A stretch of 64,000 bases of DNA from the NCBI RefSeq assembly GCF_021134715.1, contig NC_060019.1, forward strand, positions 10,988,001-11,052,000, in the 5' to 3' direction. This document shows, piece after piece, positions 56,408 to 63,983 of the stretch (position 1 is its first letter; every line of letters begins with the position of its first letter). A program made the translations under genes and the position numbers. The notes beneath the pieces were generated by a model. That model was not told the origin of the DNA. It saw only the letters and a program-made list of their open reading frames with translations, and ran no database searches. Source of the stretch: Daphnia pulex (taxonomy: Eukaryota; Arthropoda; Branchiopoda; Diplostraca; Daphniidae).

Positions 56408-58063
56408 TTAAGCATTCGTTTGAAACGTGGAAGAGCGAGATTGTTTCGAGCAGGGTGATTTAAGCATGATTTTTGCTTTGATGTAGGACATCCGTAAATT
56501 ATGTCTTCTCCGATAAAATCGTGCACAAATGAATGAAGGAAGGAAACGCAATTGGGGTTGCGCAAAAATGTATAAAGCCCTCTGACCCAGCGCTATGAAG
56601 AACACGTTGTAAGAGTAGGCAATAGGAGGTGGTGGACGAATGCAGGATATTAAACGACAAAAACCGATCGCTTCTTGAAGTTTTTCTAACTGTTGGGCGA
56701 TCGTGTCTCCGATGAACCCAACTCCTGTAGTTTGGCTCGGCTGTTGAATATTCGCAAACAAATTATGTTGGAAGTTGTAAAAGAGCTCCGTCCATCTAGC
56801 GTGAAGATCATTTACCCAATTGGTATAGTAAAAGTCAACAAGAAGAATGGCAAGAATGATTAGCTGATCTGTGGCAAAGATTAAATTCCAAAGCATTTTC
56901 ACTGTTTCTTTGGGGGTCGGCAACCAAACGGGAACCACTTGCAAGTCTTCCCCTTGTGTTTCCGTCATTTCTTCCGATCCTTGAATCTCTTTTTGTTCAG
57001 TTTTTGTTATGTAGAAATTATCGAATGAGAGTGGACCCCAAAGGTAAAAGCAAAGGTAGCCAACTGGCCAAAATAAGAGTCCCATGGCAGCCGTTAACTT
57101 GAGAACGTAGTCGATAGTAATGTCGTAAATCTTACGAATAAATTCGGAAGTGTTACGAAGGCTTCTCAAAATAGAAGTCCAAGTCCCGTTTAACTTATTC
57201 TCGACATTAGAGGTGGCATGGAGTTCAAATAATATGCCCACGCGCATTCGAATAGCTCCACTCGCCAAACTTCCCAGACGCTCCCGAAGACTCATTAACA
57301 TTTCAGTGATCTTCTCCGGTCCCAGATTTTGGCAAGGTCCTCTGCTTAATGTCATCAACCTTAGACAAATTTCTTCCGAGATGTCTACGATATCGCAAAG
57401 GGCGTCCGCTCCTTTAAGGAGACAATCTTTTTTGGCTGCTTTTGTAGCGTTCAAACATATTTCAAAAGGTTTGGAAAAGCTTTGCTGACAGCTAATTCCT
57501 TTGCTCTCCAGCCACTTGAATCCAATTTCAATCGCGTCACGAAATTGATGTTGAGTTCCATTGACGTTGTTGAACTTGGCTGCGATATCGACAACACCTG
57601 TGTTCACCTGATTCATATGATGTTGTTGAAAAACTGAACTGTTACGTATGAGCTGTGCCGAATAAATCGTTTCGTTCTGCAAACAATCGACTGCTGTCAG
57701 CGGAATAATCGTCAGTTCTCTAATGTGACACAGGGATTGGATTATTTCTGTGTAAGCTAAGGCTTTCACAAAAACGTGAGCAGTAAATCCACTAGGCATG
57801 GTCCCCACAAGAGATAAGCAGCATTCTAGGAAAGGCCGCAGCGAGATGGGCGTAAAGTGCCAGGCAGTTCCGATGACCAAACCAGTTCCGAAAAAGAATC
57901 CTCCCGTTGTTGCAGCAAAACAAAATGGTTGGGCGCTGATCGCATTTCGTCCACACAAAAGATCACCAACACGGAAAGAGTAGATATATGATCCAATGGT
58001 GAACCAAAAGAACACGCTGACGACCACTGTGAATCTTTTTCTATCTGTCGTGAACATAAACAT
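56408..58063 (-). CDS. DC-STAMP-domain multipass membrane protein (DCST1/2 or sneaky-like)
   Basis: A single-exon gene of 551 aa. Members of the family act in cell fusion (DC-STAMP, OC-STAMP) or in sperm function (DCST1, DCST2, fly sneaky). Hydrophobic segments lie near residues 11-30, 52-68, 76-105, then after a long Cys-rich luminal region a pair around YVLKLTAAMGLLFWPVGYLC and LIILAILLVDFYYTNW. The family signature FDNFYITKT follows the fourth segment, and the chain ends with the typical ICARFYRRRHNLR helix. It stops about 30 residues later, without the Cys-rich RING-like tail of DCST1, DCST2 and sneaky. The ATG at 58063 is the first in frame; the preceding in-frame GTG is not a likely start, and a TAG lies just upstream of it. 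It lies head-to-tail with PI3K-C2, 537 bases away. Confidence 0.85.
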   Translation of the reverse strand: MFMFTTDRKRFTVVVSVFFWFTIGSYIYSFRVGDLLCGRNAISAQPFCFAATTGGFFFGTGLVIGTAWHFTPISLRPFLECCLSLVGTMPSGFTAHVFVKALAYTEIIQSLCHIRELTIIPLTAVDCLQNETIYSAQLIRNSSVFQQHHMNQVNTGVVDIAAKFNNVNGTQHQFRDAIEIGFKWLESKGISCQQSFSKPFEICLNATKAAKKDCLLKGADALCDIVDISEEICLRLMTLSRGPCQNLGPEKITEMLMSLRERLGSLASGAIRMRVGILFELHATSNVENKLNGTWTSILRSLRNTSEFIRKIYDITIDYVLKLTAAMGLLFWPVGYLCFYLWGPLSFDNFYITKTEQKEIQGSEEMTETQGEDLQVVPVWLPTPKETVKMLWNLIFATDQLIILAILLVDFYYTNWVNDLHARWTELFYNFQHNLFANIQQPSQTTGVGFIGDTIAQQLEKLQEAIGFCRLISCIRPPPPIAYSYNVFFIALGQRALYIFAQPQLRFLPSFICARFYRRRHNLRMSYIKAKIMLKSPCSKQSRSSTFQTNA

Positions 58064-58065
58064 TT

Positions 58066-58086
58066 TTAAGCAACACACAGATCCAT
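58066..58086 (-). CDS. minimal upstream ORF of the DC-STAMP gene
   Basis: ATG plus five codons and a TAA (MDLCVA) ends two bases before the main ATG. If the leader extends this far upstream, it could limit translation of the main frame. It is too short for any protein function. Confidence 0.3.
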   Translation of the reverse strand: MDLCVA

Positions 58087-59138
58087 TAAAACTAAACTAA
58101 TAATGTGTTGAATGAACATCAAGTTGTCACACACACACACACTAAGTTTAAAATTAAGCTTAACCTTACTTCTGTGACTTTTAAGACTGGACTGATTGGC
58201 AGGCCTGAGTTATCACTGCAGCAATTCTGAAATAAAATTTAAAAAAAGAAATGTTATTTACCGGATATGAACGGAAACTCTAAAATGCGCTAGAAACTAT
58301 TATGTAATAACTTTTACCAATTAAATATTTACATTTTTTCACTACAAAATGTTGTAAATCGTTAGGAAACTAAAGCAGTAAGAATAACGAATCGATAGTT
58401 CAGGTAAGTAAAATAAGCTTAGTTTTTCGATCCGCAAATCATAAAACACAGGATTTTACAACACCAATCCTTTATGAAACAACAAGCCTACATTCATTAA
58501 TTTTTTCAATACCACTTGACACTATAATACTTTGAACCTTTTGATCATATTTATCAATGTAAATAAAGAACGAATTTTTTCACTTGGTTTTTCGGAAATC
58601 TTTAGCCTCTTAATCTAAATTTTGTAACAAGATATACTTCACACATGTGTTTGATTTACATTTGACGATACGTACTGTTATTTTATTTTTTAATATTCTA
58701 ATCTTGTTCATGGGGGGGGGGGGGGAAATAGGTCATTTTACTCCGCAAGAAACGTTTCTTGTGAAATAAAAATGACGTCTAAACGGTTATCAATTGACAG
58801 TAGATAAAATAATGTCTTCGTTCCCAAAAATTGGTAAACAGACATCGTTCCGAATGGGATTGGCTGATAAGCTGCAATAACGTACTTTTCTATACCCCAA
58901 AATCGCTGAAACCCTTTCGTCATTCAAATTGTTATGTTACCATGGACTGCTAATGAAAAATCTAGACCAAGGACTTCCAAACGAGTTTTGATCTAGTTTT
59001 TACAGCTAGCGGGTCTGAAGGAAGAGCGTGGTCGGCATAAAAGAAGCTCGCAGTGTTCAAAATTGTGGCAGCATCGTCGGATCTCTCACCATTTGAAGTG
59101 CTACTTCCTATCGTTTATAACATAGGCATTAAGACGAC
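58087..59138. other. divergent promoter interval between DC-STAMP and cystatin-chimera genes
   Basis: No coding sequence. It contains a CA run, a 14-base poly-G tract (58712-58725) and the TATA element of the + strand gene. On the - strand a possible 5' leader intron (donor AGAA then GTAAGG near 58165, acceptor ATTATTAG near 58100) precedes the DC-STAMP start. Confidence 0.4.
59037..59043 (+). promoter_or_regulatory. TATA box of the cystatin-chimera gene
   Basis: ATAAAAG about 100 bases upstream of the ATG at 59139. The expected start, about 30 bases on, falls at GCAGCATCG (about 59068-59076). Confidence 0.5.
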
Positions 59139-61364
59139 ATGTCTTATACACTGACTCCAAAAGCGACTTTCTTCCTGTTGGTTATCTTAACATTGACCCT
59201 TATTGAGAGCGCTGTTTCGGTTTCACTCACTAAACGCCATATTCCAGGCCGAGTTCCAGGTCGCCCAAGAAAGGTAGTAGGCGGATTCTCACCGATCGAC
59301 GTGGACGATCCCAACGTCAAGGAAATAGCCGAATTTGCTACAAGTGCCATATCGGAGAGCAGCAATTCTGGGCCTTTATCACTAATCAAAATAGTCAAAG
59401 CTGAATCCCAAGTAGTGGCCGGAAGGAATTATAAATTGATCCTAGAGCTCAGTAGCGTCGTTGACGGGGCTAGCGAGACCGAAGAAACCCTTTGCGAAGT
59501 GATTGTTTTCCATCAGCCATGGACGCAAACACGGAAACTGAGCAAGTCAAACTGTTTACCAATTAAAGTAATTCATTCTTGGACCGAAGCTCGTGAACTG
59601 GGAGCTTCTGTGAACTGTCAAAAACCACAAATCGAAGCTGTTCCTGACACTCCGGCGATGATGGTCGGTGGCTTCTCGCCGATCGACACCGACGACGCTT
59701 CAGTCAAAGAAATGGCTAATTTTGCTACAACTAGAATATCAGAAAGCAGTAATTCGGGGCCATTAGCATTGATCAAAGTTGTAAAAGCAGAATCGCAGGT
59801 TGTAGCCGGTAAGAATTACAAACTAACTCTGGAGCTGGGTAGTGCTGCCGATGGAGCCGTAGGAAGTAATCTTATTTGCAATGTACTCGTTTTTCATCAA
59901 TCGTGGACTCACACACTTGAACTGAAGGAGTCCAATTGTTTGGCGCCGATCGAAGCCGAGACTGACATAGTAACTGAAATACTGCGAGCTATTGACGGAC
60001 GTGAAGACTTGTCGAGAATGGCTGGTTATCTAAATGCGTCTCGTGAAACCTTGATAAAAGAGTTTCCTCTCACCAGTTCTGGTAATTACGAAAAATGTTC
60101 ATAGTTGCATTTTAGAATTAAGTGAATTTAATATTAAATACTAACTATTTATCCTATTTGACTGAACGGGAAAAAATAGACGGAAGAAAATTGGGCTACA
60201 CGTTATTTGCACCCACATCGATGGCTTTCATGATGCAAATGCCGCAAGACGCTGGCGATCCTCTCGTAATGGACGCCGATTTTCGCCGGTCGGTACTGAT
60301 TCGCCATTTTGTTCGCGAGGATGTTTCGTCGGACGATATAGGGAAATTGGACAAGCTCGTCATGGCCGACTCTAACGAGGTTATTTTCACAAGCAAGAGC
60401 GCAAATGAATTATGCAACCTACCTCCAATAGACAGCGATGGATCTGAATGTGAAGCATACATCCCGTCATGGACGTTCCAGCCAAATTCCGGCAGATGTG
60501 AGAACTACGTATACGGTGGCTGTTTCAAGACGAAAAATCTTTTTGAAACAGAAGAAGAATGCCAAGCCGCCTGTGATCCAGCAGTCCGTAAGTTAGTTAT
60601 TTAAATAAAAAATTATTAAACATTAAAAATGAAATAAAAACATATTTACTGGATTGATTTGAACTTCTCTAAAAAAAAATCGGCTGCAAATCTTCCTAAA
60701 TTCAATTAAAATTTGTTTTAGGATGATTTTACAGAAAAACTGAATCACTGCTTATTTTGACTTCTTTTTTCTAGATCCTTTAACACAGCTGGTAAACGAG
60801 ACAGAAATCCAACAGGTAGCCATTCAATTGGAAAAAGATTTGGGAACCATTTACGCCATTGATCGAGTTTTCATGAGTGGTGATGAAGTTGGCGAAATCC
60901 TTCGTATTAAACATCCTAGTCCCGGTCCATTTGGATTTTTCGGAATGCCAATTGAAATACAACCAGAAGTCAATGAGAACATTCCTGCTAGAATCACTGG
61001 CGGATTTTCTACTATCGACGTGGACGACGCCTACATAAAGGAGATCGCCGATTTCGCCACAACCGCCATATCTGCAAATAATAACTCAGGACCTGTCCGA
61101 TTGATTAGGATTATCAAAGCAGAATCGCAGATTGTGGCCGGAAAAAATTTTAAATTGACTCTTAAACTTAACAGCGCTATCGACGAAGTTGATTCCCTCC
61201 TGTGCGATGTGGTCGTATTCGATCAATCGTGGTCACAAACCCGACAATTAAAAAAATCGAATTGTTTGTCGATAAATACTGTCGTTTTATGGAACCAAAT
61301 TCTCAAACAGGAAAATGACTCGTTACCGAATTCACAAGTTACAGAGTTACATAGTTTGTTTTAG
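59139..61364 (+). CDS. secreted multi-cystatin / FAS1 / Kunitz chimera
   Basis: Three coding exons (59139-60081, 60180-60587, 60775-61364) give 646 aa. Residues 9-28 form a signal peptide. Two cystatin-like domains follow, with GGFSPID, QVVAG and PW (domain 1, HQPWTQ) or SW (domain 2, HQSWTH); a third at the C-terminus has GGFSTID, QIVAG and DQSWSQ. Between domains 2 and 3 lies a fasciclin FAS1 domain (from DIVTEILRAI, GYTLFAPTSMAF, to AIDRVFM), apparently split by a Kunitz domain with six Cys (CEAYIPSWTF to CQAAC). Cystatins inhibit papain-like proteases; Kunitz domains inhibit serine proteases; FAS1 mediates adhesion. I chose the acceptor at 60179 because it follows a perfect TACTAAC branch point and restores FAS1 reading; an acceptor at 60122 would leave a 41-base intron. 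An extracellular inhibitor of pathogen, gut or self proteases is inference. Confidence 0.85.
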
Positions 61365-62072
61365 GTAACCGTTACCAAATAGCAAATACAAACTTGGTCA
61401 ACGTACGCTGACGAGGTTGTGCCAAACTTTCTAGTTCCTTGGTTTAAATAATATACCCCCCCCCCCCAAAAAAAAACCCCACACAAACACATGTTCATTT
61501 CTCGATAAATGTTTGTTTAAATACAATGCTTTTCACACCTGCAATAATTGTTGAAATTGCTGCTAACGTTGGATAAAGTATTTCCCTATTACAACATTAA
61601 TTTTGGCAGATAACAAAACTAACATTATAGTATCATCACCAGGGTTTAACCTGTAAGAATTGCTGGTCACGTTGCAATCATCTTGATTTGAGTAGTACAA
61701 TTCAAACTGAAAATAAATGAAACTGATGTTTACCTACAGAGATGGGTGCCATTTTCGAGGAAGTATAACAAGGACAGACCTGTGCTCACGTAACTTCACA
61801 TGAAATAGACCCTATCCTAGAATGAATGATTTCTGCCATCTGTTTGTTTCTCAAATCTCAGAGTTAATGGCAGAACCGCAGAGGCAGAATGCAAATGCAC
61901 ACACCCTGCTATATTATTTTTGCAAGTTCTCTCACTGACGACTGACTCATTTCTGAGCAGTTCTCTTCCTTCGAATTTTCGTACCAACCAGCCGTAACGC
62001 CATCTCTGGAGCTTGCCGGCAGGCTCTTTTGCAGGCTTGATGCTTGATGCAGACGATGTTATTTCAAAAGCA
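61365..62072 (+). other. 3' flank of the chimera gene and 5' region of CSTF3
   Basis: AATAAA at 61712-61717 is the best candidate end signal for the chimera gene. A C run (61456-61467) precedes it. An AGATGGCG core (on the - strand, about 61997-62005) lies near the probable CSTF3 start. A leader exon seems to end at 62072. Confidence 0.4.
61712..61717 (+). terminator. candidate poly(A) signal of the chimera gene
   Basis: AATAAA about 350 bases after the stop codon, before the CSTF3 promoter region. Confidence 0.3.
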
Positions 62073-62153: not shown

Positions 62154-62176
62154 CTTACTGGCATTAAAATAAACAA

Positions 62177-63983
62177 ATGGCTGATAAATTAGCAAGAGCC
62201 GAGAAGGCTATAGAATCGAATCCATTTGATTTGGAAGCTTGGGGTCAAATTTTGCGTGAAGCCCAAATACGCAAGATTGATGATGCTCGAACTTACTTTG
62301 AACGCTTGGTGGCCCAGTTTCCGACATCAGGTCGTTATTGGAAAATGTACATTGAACAAGAAATGCGAGCAAGAAACTATGATAAAGTCGAAAAGGTAGC
62401 AATTAATTTAGCACATTCTAATGAAGCCATTCAATCTTGCTCCTCCCTATTTTTAGCTGTTTCAACGATGCTTGGTCAAGGTTTTAAACATTGAACTGTG
62501 GAAATTGTATGTTAACTATGTGAAAGAAACCAAAAGTGCTCTGCCCAACTACAGGTACAACAAACTTGAATATACAAACACTAAATATTGTTTTCTTTAA
62601 TCATACCAATGTTCACAGAGAAAAAATTGCTCAATGCTACGATTTTACACTGGACAAAGTTGGGATGGATATTCAGTCATACAGTATTTGGAATGACTAT
62701 ATTCACTTCCTCCGTAATGTTGAAGCTGTTGGATCTTATGCTGAAAATCAAAGGATCACGGCTGTGAGGAAAGTGTATCAAAGGGGTGTAATCACTCCAA
62801 TGCTTAACATTGAACAACTATGGAAGGATTACATTGCTTATGAATTGGCTATTAACCCCATGATTGCTGAAAAGATGCAACAGGTACAGTTTTTTTTTTT
62901 TTAAACCTTACCCTAACACTTTTTAAACACTTATTTTCAATTATTTAGGAGCGCAGCCGTGATTACATGAATGCTAGAAGAGTTGCCAAAGAACTAGAGG
63001 CCTGCACTCGCGGTCTTAACAAGGCTATGCCTTCGACTCCTCCATCCAATCATCCGGAACAAAACAAACAGGTGGAACTGTGGAAGAAGTATCTGGCTTG
63101 GGAGAAATCGAATCCCCTCCGTACGGAAGACCAGTCACTACTCACTAAGAGAACAATGTTCGCTTTCGAACAATGTCTCCTATGTCTGGGACATCATCCT
63201 CATGTTTGGTATGAAGCTGCCCTTTTTCTACAGATTAGCACAAAAACTCTTTCAGATAAAGGGGTAAGTTAAAGCACCAATTTCTGTCAATATTCTTAAA
63301 TTTAAAGATTCTTTTTAGGATGTTACGGCTGCCAAGAACTTAGCTGAAGAAGTCTCAAATATTTATGAACGATCAATTAATGGGCCCATGTCACATAATA
63401 GTTTGCTTTATTTCGCTTATGCGGATTACGAAGAGGGACGAATTAAGTACGACAAAGCTCATCAGATCTATACAAAATATTTGGAGCAGCATGACATCGA
63501 CCCAACTTTGGTAATTTTATCACTTTTTACATTGTACATACAAACCCCTTATGTTTAAAACATTCGCAGGGTTATATTCAATATATGCGATTTGCAAGGA
63601 GAGCAGAAGGTATTAAATCGGCTCGACTAGTGTTCAAGAGATCTCGCCAGGATCCCCGCTGTTCTAGCCATGTTTTCGTAGCTGCTGCCTTAATGGAATA
63701 TTATTGCACCAAGGACAAAAATATCGCCTTTAAAATATTCGATCTAGGCCTCAAACGTTTCAAGCATCAACCTGATTATCTGCTTGCTTATGTGGAATTC
63801 TTGACCCAACTAAATGAAGATAACAACACTAGAGTTCTCTTTGAAAGGATTCTTTCATCAGGTTCCCTCACTTCTGAAAATTCGCTTGAAATTTGGAACC
63901 GCTTCCTCGAATTTGAGTCTTCTATTGGTGATCTTTCGAGTGTAATCAAAGTAGAAAAAAGACGCAACGCCGTTCTCGACAAG
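62177..63983 (+). CDS. CSTF3: cleavage stimulation factor subunit 3 (CstF-77, suppressor of forked), N-terminal part
   Basis: This is the scaffold of the CstF complex in mRNA 3'-end cleavage. It dimerises through HAT repeats and contacts CstF-64, CstF-50 and CPSF. Exons visible: 62177-62395, 62457-62554, 62619-62883, 62949-63263, 63319-63510 and 63570-63983, all with GT-AG ends and consistent phases, giving the first 501 residues (the family is about 720). HAT helices are evident, for example [86 protein letters not shown] and [11 protein letters not shown]. The monkeytail region and Pro-rich C-terminus would lie beyond the window, which ends just after the donor at 63984. The ATG at 62177 gives the canonical N-terminus. 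Confidence 0.96.

Follow-up and report, generated by a model that had tools for sequence, protein, structure and literature searches.

The analysed window, a stretch of 64,000 nucleotides of Daphnia pulex DNA (assembly GCF_021134715.1, contig NC_060019.1), carries a putative gene for a protein in which a Kunitz domain is nested within a FAS1 domain, with cystatin domains on either side. At the sequence level this nesting is real, and further FAS1 genes of the same genome have the corresponding site either filled or empty. The gene quite probably encodes a secreted, multi-headed protease-inhibitor protein that has grown via gene fusion and exon shuffling; the most likely origin of the nesting is that a Kunitz exon was shuffled into an intron inside FAS1. 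Insertion of a domain within another fold is probably rarer than end-to-end fusion, and the preceding state has usually disappeared. Here, empty and filled sites are found in one genome, together with a related Kunitz domain on a phase 1-1 exon; because these before and after states and the 1-1 exon coexist, the steps of nested exon shuffling become readable and testable.

Gene model and domain layout

The coding region occupies positions 59139-61364 of the window (+ strand), and its three exons (59139-60081, 60180-60587, and 60775-61364) join at GT-AG borders into one open frame of 646 amino acids plus stop. This putative model was derived from the sequence, and the single frame agrees with a preliminary description of the stretch, which had proposed a three-exon, 646-residue protein with junctions at 60081/60180 and 60587/60775. 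Both introns are phase 1; intron 1 (60082-60179) has the same position in the FAS1 paralogues A-E described below, and intron 2 (60588-60774) lies directly 3' of the Kunitz domain.

The domain order is a signal-like start, two cystatins, the first part of FAS1, the Kunitz domain, the last part of FAS1, and a third cystatin, all on the + strand. The putative signal peptide (residues 1-28, 59139-59222) was recognized by hydropathy, with a mean Kyte-Doolittle value of 2.15 over residues 10-28 compared with 1.22 for the best other 19-residue stretch past residue 40. The cystatin domains comprise approximately residues 46-141 (59274-59561; GG, QVVAG, QPW, Cys119/Cys139), 175-269 (59661-59945; GG, QVVAG, QSW, Cys247/Cys267, with the best Pfam Cystatin stretch at 177-235), and 524-615 (60993-61268; GG, QIVAG, QSW, Cys594/Cys614, with a predicted fold in addition to the Pfam match). 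The FAS1 domain is encoded in three pieces, namely an N-terminal part in exon 1 (residues 274-314, 59958-60081), a middle part in exon 2 (residues 316-390, 60182-60406), and a C-terminal part in exon 3 that contains GTIYAIDRVFM (residues 456-495, 60789-60908). The Kunitz/BPTI domain covers residues 391-449 (60407-60583), scored 52.4 bits in an own-genome Kunitz scan, and has its six cysteines at 393, 405, 421, 429, 442, and 446 with Kunitz spacing. Each cystatin has one likely disulphide, leaving Cys160 in a linker as the sole unassigned cysteine of 13.

All of the domain types named in the preliminary description (three cystatins, FAS1, and Kunitz) score above the Pfam curated cut-offs in the 646-residue protein: Cystatin (PF00031) with three stretches and 96.5 bits (cut-off 22.2), the cystatin-like SQAPI model with three stretches and 109.3 bits, Kunitz_BPTI (PF00014) at residues 393-446 with 47.3 bits (cut-off 21), and Fasciclin (PF02469) at residues 294-376 with 28.9 bits, the last corresponding to profile positions 6-80 of 123. 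Cystatin 1, taken alone as residues 1-166, scored 37.1 bits with Cystatin and 48.0 bits with SQAPI, and cystatin 3 scored 29.3 and 32.1 bits, respectively. The start of FAS1 needs revision, as it had been placed in exon 2 and the domain already begins near residue 274, within exon 1 (ETDIVTEILRAIDG...); residues 274-313 are 60% identical to the FAS1-Kunitz paralogue C.

Three of the joints lie within exons (cystatin 2 to FAS1 in exon 1, FAS1 to Kunitz in exon 2, and FAS1 to cystatin 3 in exon 3) and are therefore independent of the splice model, whereas the joint from the Kunitz domain to the end of FAS1 depends on splicing of intron 2. The exon shared by cystatin 3 and the FAS1 end has its counterpart in paralogues A, C, and D. 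Two separate genes were rejected on the basis of the joints within exons and the single open frame; a retrocopy was likewise rejected because the introns are kept at the positions of the paralogues. The flanking genes match the DC-STAMP-like (56411-58096, - strand) and Suppressor-of-forked (62168-63269, + strand) families and are unrelated, so that the window copy stands apart from the cluster of its paralogues on contig C2. A run of 14 G (58712-58725) is located 5' of the gene, and a run of 12 C (61456-61467) is located 3' of it.

The Kunitz domain within FAS1

A FAS1 profile that drew only on four Kunitz-free domains from this genome (A, B, E, and F) matched the window protein in two pieces, with profile positions 3-116 on residues 274-388 and positions 120-159 of 163 on residues 456-495; the Kunitz domain falls between the two. 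The second piece scored 35.1 bits in the full protein, and the first 60 exon 3 residues, when taken by themselves, scored 40.9 bits, compared with a maximum of 4.9 bits among 2000 shuffles (1374 of which gave any hit). A chance resemblance of the exon 3 segment to the end of FAS1 was therefore rejected, upholding the earlier proposal that GTIYAIDRVFM is the closing segment of the domain. The same segment (LVNETEIQQ...GTIYAIDRVFM) shares 56% identity with the C-terminal FAS1 part of gene B, which lacks a Kunitz domain (E = 7.7e-14).

Removal from the query of everything between the first FAS1 part and a point just past the Kunitz domain extended the Pfam Fasciclin match to profile positions 4-122 of 123 and 40.0 bits, compared with 6-80 and 28.9 bits for the intact protein; the naturally Kunitz-less paralogues matched at 9-122 (A), 14-122 (B), and 8-121 (E). 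Combined with the two-piece match, this indicates that the whole FAS1 domain up to the closing IDRV strand is present in the window protein. An alignment of five FAS1 sequences (the Kunitz-out window row, A, B, E, and F) matched eight PDB sequences at E <= 0.01, with TGFBI as the best, and the insertion point falls on HYPNG of TGFBI, in the first of its FAS1 domains to be matched, a site that we take to be a turn between two strands. Folds of the BPTI type have both ends side by side, joined via the first and last cysteine, and such a domain can therefore be accommodated in a turn that stays closed. Taken with the two-piece match, the position of the insertion supports the previously proposed placement of the Kunitz domain inside FAS1, with cystatins on either side.

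Structure prediction with AlphaFold2 gave a poor model of exon 2 alone with four paralogue rows (mean pLDDT 49). For exon 3 with four rows, a usable cystatin was obtained together with a poor FAS1 end (pLDDT of 36-55 in 10-residue blocks). A Foldseek search with the exon 3 model returned 32 matches at E <= 0.001, of which the best rows were cystatins (best match cystatin E/M, E 2.6e-6), with fetuin-B from row 26 on.

Paralogues and empty sites in the genome

Profile scans of the genome (133.2 Mb, 13 contigs) returned at least 70 Kunitz, at least 64 Fasciclin, and at least 25 Cystatin matches. On contig C2 (3,715,001-3,765,000, a stretch that was read in parts), cystatin and FAS1 genes are clustered on the minus strand. 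Within this cluster, paralogues C (C2:3745151-3743778) and D (C2:3742866-3741414) have the order FAS1-Kunitz-cystatin, paralogue A (C2:3751577-3750471) has FAS1 and a cystatin without Kunitz, B (C2:3748397-3747534) and E (C2:3720511-3719562) consist of FAS1 only, and F (C2, about 3754330-3753590) is the Kunitz-free last FAS1 repeat of a longer FAS1 gene. These gene models rest on homology and on splice sites identified by eye, and the acceptor in E was chosen to fit the frame. The site is thus filled in three genes (the window gene, C, and D), a count that Kunitz domains split by introns elsewhere may have escaped in the six-frame scan, and empty in A, B, E, and the last repeat of F. The arrangement is therefore not unique, its FAS1-Kunitz-cystatin core being shared by two paralogues on another contig.

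Paralogue D has an extra phase-0 intron within its Kunitz domain that is absent in the window gene and C, reflecting either a gain in D or a loss in the others; D was missing from the six-frame Kunitz scan, probably because this intron splits the domain. The FAS1 exon 2 sequences of A (C2:3751280-3751059) and C (C2:3744893-3744492) are nearly identical up to a point just short of the Kunitz site, which suggests that gene conversion has acted within the C2 cluster. Elsewhere on C2, two equal-score cystatin matches about 13 kb apart (2169418-2169597, + strand, and 2182781-2182960, - strand) resemble an inverted duplication, and three FAS1 matches of 41.3-41.7 bits within 30 kb (8954812, 8959040, and 8984479) are perhaps recent tandem copies. 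On contig C5 (10258830-10263538), several cystatin matches, some of them in one 817-amino-acid frame, indicate a multi-cystatin gene with diverged repeats.

Origin of the nested domain

Modules of class 1-1 as a rule enter pre-existing phase-1 introns, as described for FN2 in MMP2 and Kunitz in APP in the available part of a published account (PMC3927616). Such a recipient intron at the insertion spot is present in A, B, E, and F, where a phase-1 intron lies between the strand ending VMAD...T and a strand with INNAEIQ or similar. In the window gene, C, and D, the Kunitz domain starts within a few residues of that site according to the alignment and to splice sites read by eye. A phase-1 intron follows directly 3' of the Kunitz domain in all three genes, none of which has a left-hand (5') intron.

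Two related Kunitz domains located outside FAS1, at C6:2245142 (L074) and C10:15481115 (L075), were compared, but not the best match of this kind, C6:291572. Both share with the nested domains the signature CxLPP...WTF...YVYGGC..T.NLF.TEE, and at C6:2245142 the long LPP loop, SWTF, and YVYGGC.KT.NLF are in common; as opposed to the nested window domain, they lie outside FAS1 and have P1 Met with 13 residues between Cys1 and Cys2 (C6:2245142) and P1 Lys with 11 residues (C10:15481115). With splice sites read by eye, the domain at C6:2245142 is carried on an exon whose two borders are both phase 1 and which ends at the equivalent codon. The left border at C10:15481115 is also phase 1, and its right border is located beyond the stretch examined.

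In the preferred reading, an ancestral FAS1 gene would have had a phase-1 intron towards the end of the fold, separating two of its strands, and this intron would have captured a Kunitz module on a symmetrical phase 1-1 exon. Subsequent loss of the left-hand intron, as the paralogues suggest, would account for FAS1 and Kunitz now occupying one exon. The FAS1 fold may still close around the insert and display the Kunitz domain, as the profile matches suggest. The window copy would then have gained two cystatins at its front, together with a signal sequence of their own in place of that of FAS1; at this front junction, paralogue C reads ...VSSKPTTETDIVAEIL and the window gene reads ...SNCLAPIEAETDIVTEIL.

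Selection and phylogeny

Between the window gene and paralogue C, dN/dS was 0.25/1.19 for the first part of FAS1, 0.27/1.33 for the Kunitz domain, and 0.55/1.99 for the last part of FAS1, giving ratios of 0.2-0.3 (0.21 for the first and 0.28 for the last FAS1 part) that are only rough, since synonymous sites are near or at saturation; against D, dS was infinite in the Kunitz domain and the last FAS1 part. In the Kunitz domain, codon positions 1, 2, and 3 differed from those of C by 0.20, 0.21, and 0.52. These sequence comparisons point to purifying selection on all of the pieces (the FAS1 parts and Kunitz), the last FAS1 part having an amino acid identity of 41% to C.

A joint tree of the seven FAS1 domains grouped the window gene, C, and D at 36-48% support. 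Trees computed separately from the second and from the third exon part did not recover this group, and the AU test accepted an alternative to the grouping of the Kunitz-bearing genes (p 0.416). With this weak grouping and AU result, a single gain of the Kunitz domain is not proven. A tree of ten Kunitz domains left the order within the nested group unsettled.

The Kunitz loop and putative function

The inhibitory motifs of cystatins are an N-terminal Gly, a QxVxG loop, and a PW loop. All three cystatins of the window protein keep GG, QVVAG or QIVAG, and the W loop, with the Pro of PW only in domain 1 (QPW, compared with QSW in domains 2 and 3), and they appear to be the best-supported active parts. 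The three would probably inhibit papain-like cysteine proteases outside the cell, with the FAS1 core as a possible scaffold or anchor.

The usual Kunitz inhibitory loop has 8 residues between the first two cysteines and Lys, Arg, or a bulky residue at P1. The window Kunitz departs from this loop, with 11 residues between Cys1 and Cys2 and Glu406 at P1, a combination that is unlike trypsin or chymotrypsin inhibitors. Consequently, the serine-protease targeting attributed to the protein in the preliminary description is doubtful; the domain is a member of the fold family with a putative inhibitor role. By reading, the other nested Kunitz domains have P1 Tyr with 11 residues (C) and P1 Leu with 12 residues (D). 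Including the two domains outside FAS1, five different P1 residues therefore occur in five domains, reflecting either target switching or relaxed function, between which a sample of five cannot tell. The variable loop (Glu in the window gene, Tyr and Leu in the paralogues) may be aimed at a non-trypsin target or may no longer inhibit. A lineage-specific inhibitor family, in which FAS1 displays a Kunitz domain with a fast-changing loop alongside cystatins, can be put forward only tentatively; if true, a single secreted chain could engage cysteine proteases and, at the same time, an additional protease class of an unusual kind.

Alternative explanations

It is very improbable that the model misjoins two neighbours, one coding for cystatins and the other for FAS1-Kunitz-cystatin. 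Separate relatives do exist for the pair of cystatins (on C2, C5, and C10) and for the FAS1 core, and the FAS1-Kunitz-cystatin genes on C2 have signal-like starts of their own, but in the window a single frame, running from stop to stop over 59133-60104, contains both cystatin 2 and the first helix of FAS1, and no second signal-like stretch was seen 5' of FAS1 when looked for by hydropathy. Somewhat more room is left for FAS1 as a broken relic, its halves being mere non-folding linkers while the Kunitz domain and cystatins do the work; the low Fasciclin score of the intact protein (28.9 bits), the low AlphaFold2 confidence for both FAS1 parts taken alone, and the limited identity of the last part to C (41%) fit such a loss. 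This is nevertheless unlikely, as both parts are in frame with the dN/dS ratios of purifying selection against C (0.21 and 0.28), and GTIYAIDRVFM, the closing strand, differs little from its counterpart in the Kunitz-less paralogues.

Other explanations concern the use of the domains and their history. The Kunitz domain may no longer be an inhibitor, and the protein may belong to the extracellular matrix or be adhesive, with cystatin, FAS1, and Kunitz as structural modules; P1 Glu and the longer loop are compatible with such a role, as are the Kunitz domain of collagen VI and the nature of FAS1 as an extracellular module binding different ligands, both described in the available part of PMC11007232. 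Three cystatins that retain the inhibitory motifs suit an inhibitor better, leaving the matrix role a real possibility that is nonetheless the less probable one. Slightly less likely still is that the Kunitz domain was spread among the paralogues by recombination or gene conversion instead of being inserted once before the copies split. In the first part of FAS1, the Kunitz-free A and the Kunitz-bearing C are the closest pair (amino acid identity 0.76, dS 0.55), with the other pairs among A-D and the window gene at dS of at least 1.0, and the single-exon-part trees conflict, not all of them grouping the window gene, C, and D. These three genes are nonetheless alike in insertion region, Kunitz type, and downstream intron, as would be expected from one insertion.

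Relation to known systems

Full-text literature searches covering main texts, not supplements, returned no description of the cystatin-FAS1-Kunitz order among the matches listed, including no paper for cystatin, fasciclin, Kunitz, and Daphnia or for a FAS1, Kunitz, and cystatin domain architecture; the arrangement may be annotated somewhere without a published description. The claim that no described family has this order thus agrees with these searches, with the qualification that C and D share its core. A paper on collagens VI and XII names both FAS1 and Kunitz in its available part, but in different proteins (PMC11007232). In the part available of a survey of arthropod cystatins, three architectures are given (single, multicystatin, and multicystatin plus C1A peptidase) and none with FAS1 or Kunitz; Kunitz is mentioned only alongside thyropins, and "fasciclin" is absent from that main text (PMC3407033). 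Within the limits of this partial text, the window gene adds a cystatin architecture beyond these three. The Daphnia pulex and Rhodnius multicystatins (MEROPS I25) covered there likewise have several secreted cystatins per chain in an expanded family; unlike the window protein, none is listed with FAS1 or Kunitz in the same available text (PMC3407033). For D. pulex, 55 Kunitz and 39 cystatin domains are reported in the available part of a survey of arthropod inhibitors, in whose main text, to the same extent, "fasciclin" does not occur (PMC5673224).

For FAS1 itself, TGFBI and periostin (PDB 7as7 and 5yjg) are among the proteins matched by the alignment with the Kunitz-out window row; they have a few residues at the Kunitz site, and their entries name no Kunitz or cystatin. 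For the insertion, the closest parallels are FN2, which sits within the catalytic domain of MMP2, and Kunitz in APP. Both insertions are accounted for by the same entry of a symmetrical 1-1 exon into a phase-1 intron of the recipient in the available part of PMC3927616; in contrast, it is FAS1 that receives the module here, and none of the three copies has a left intron.
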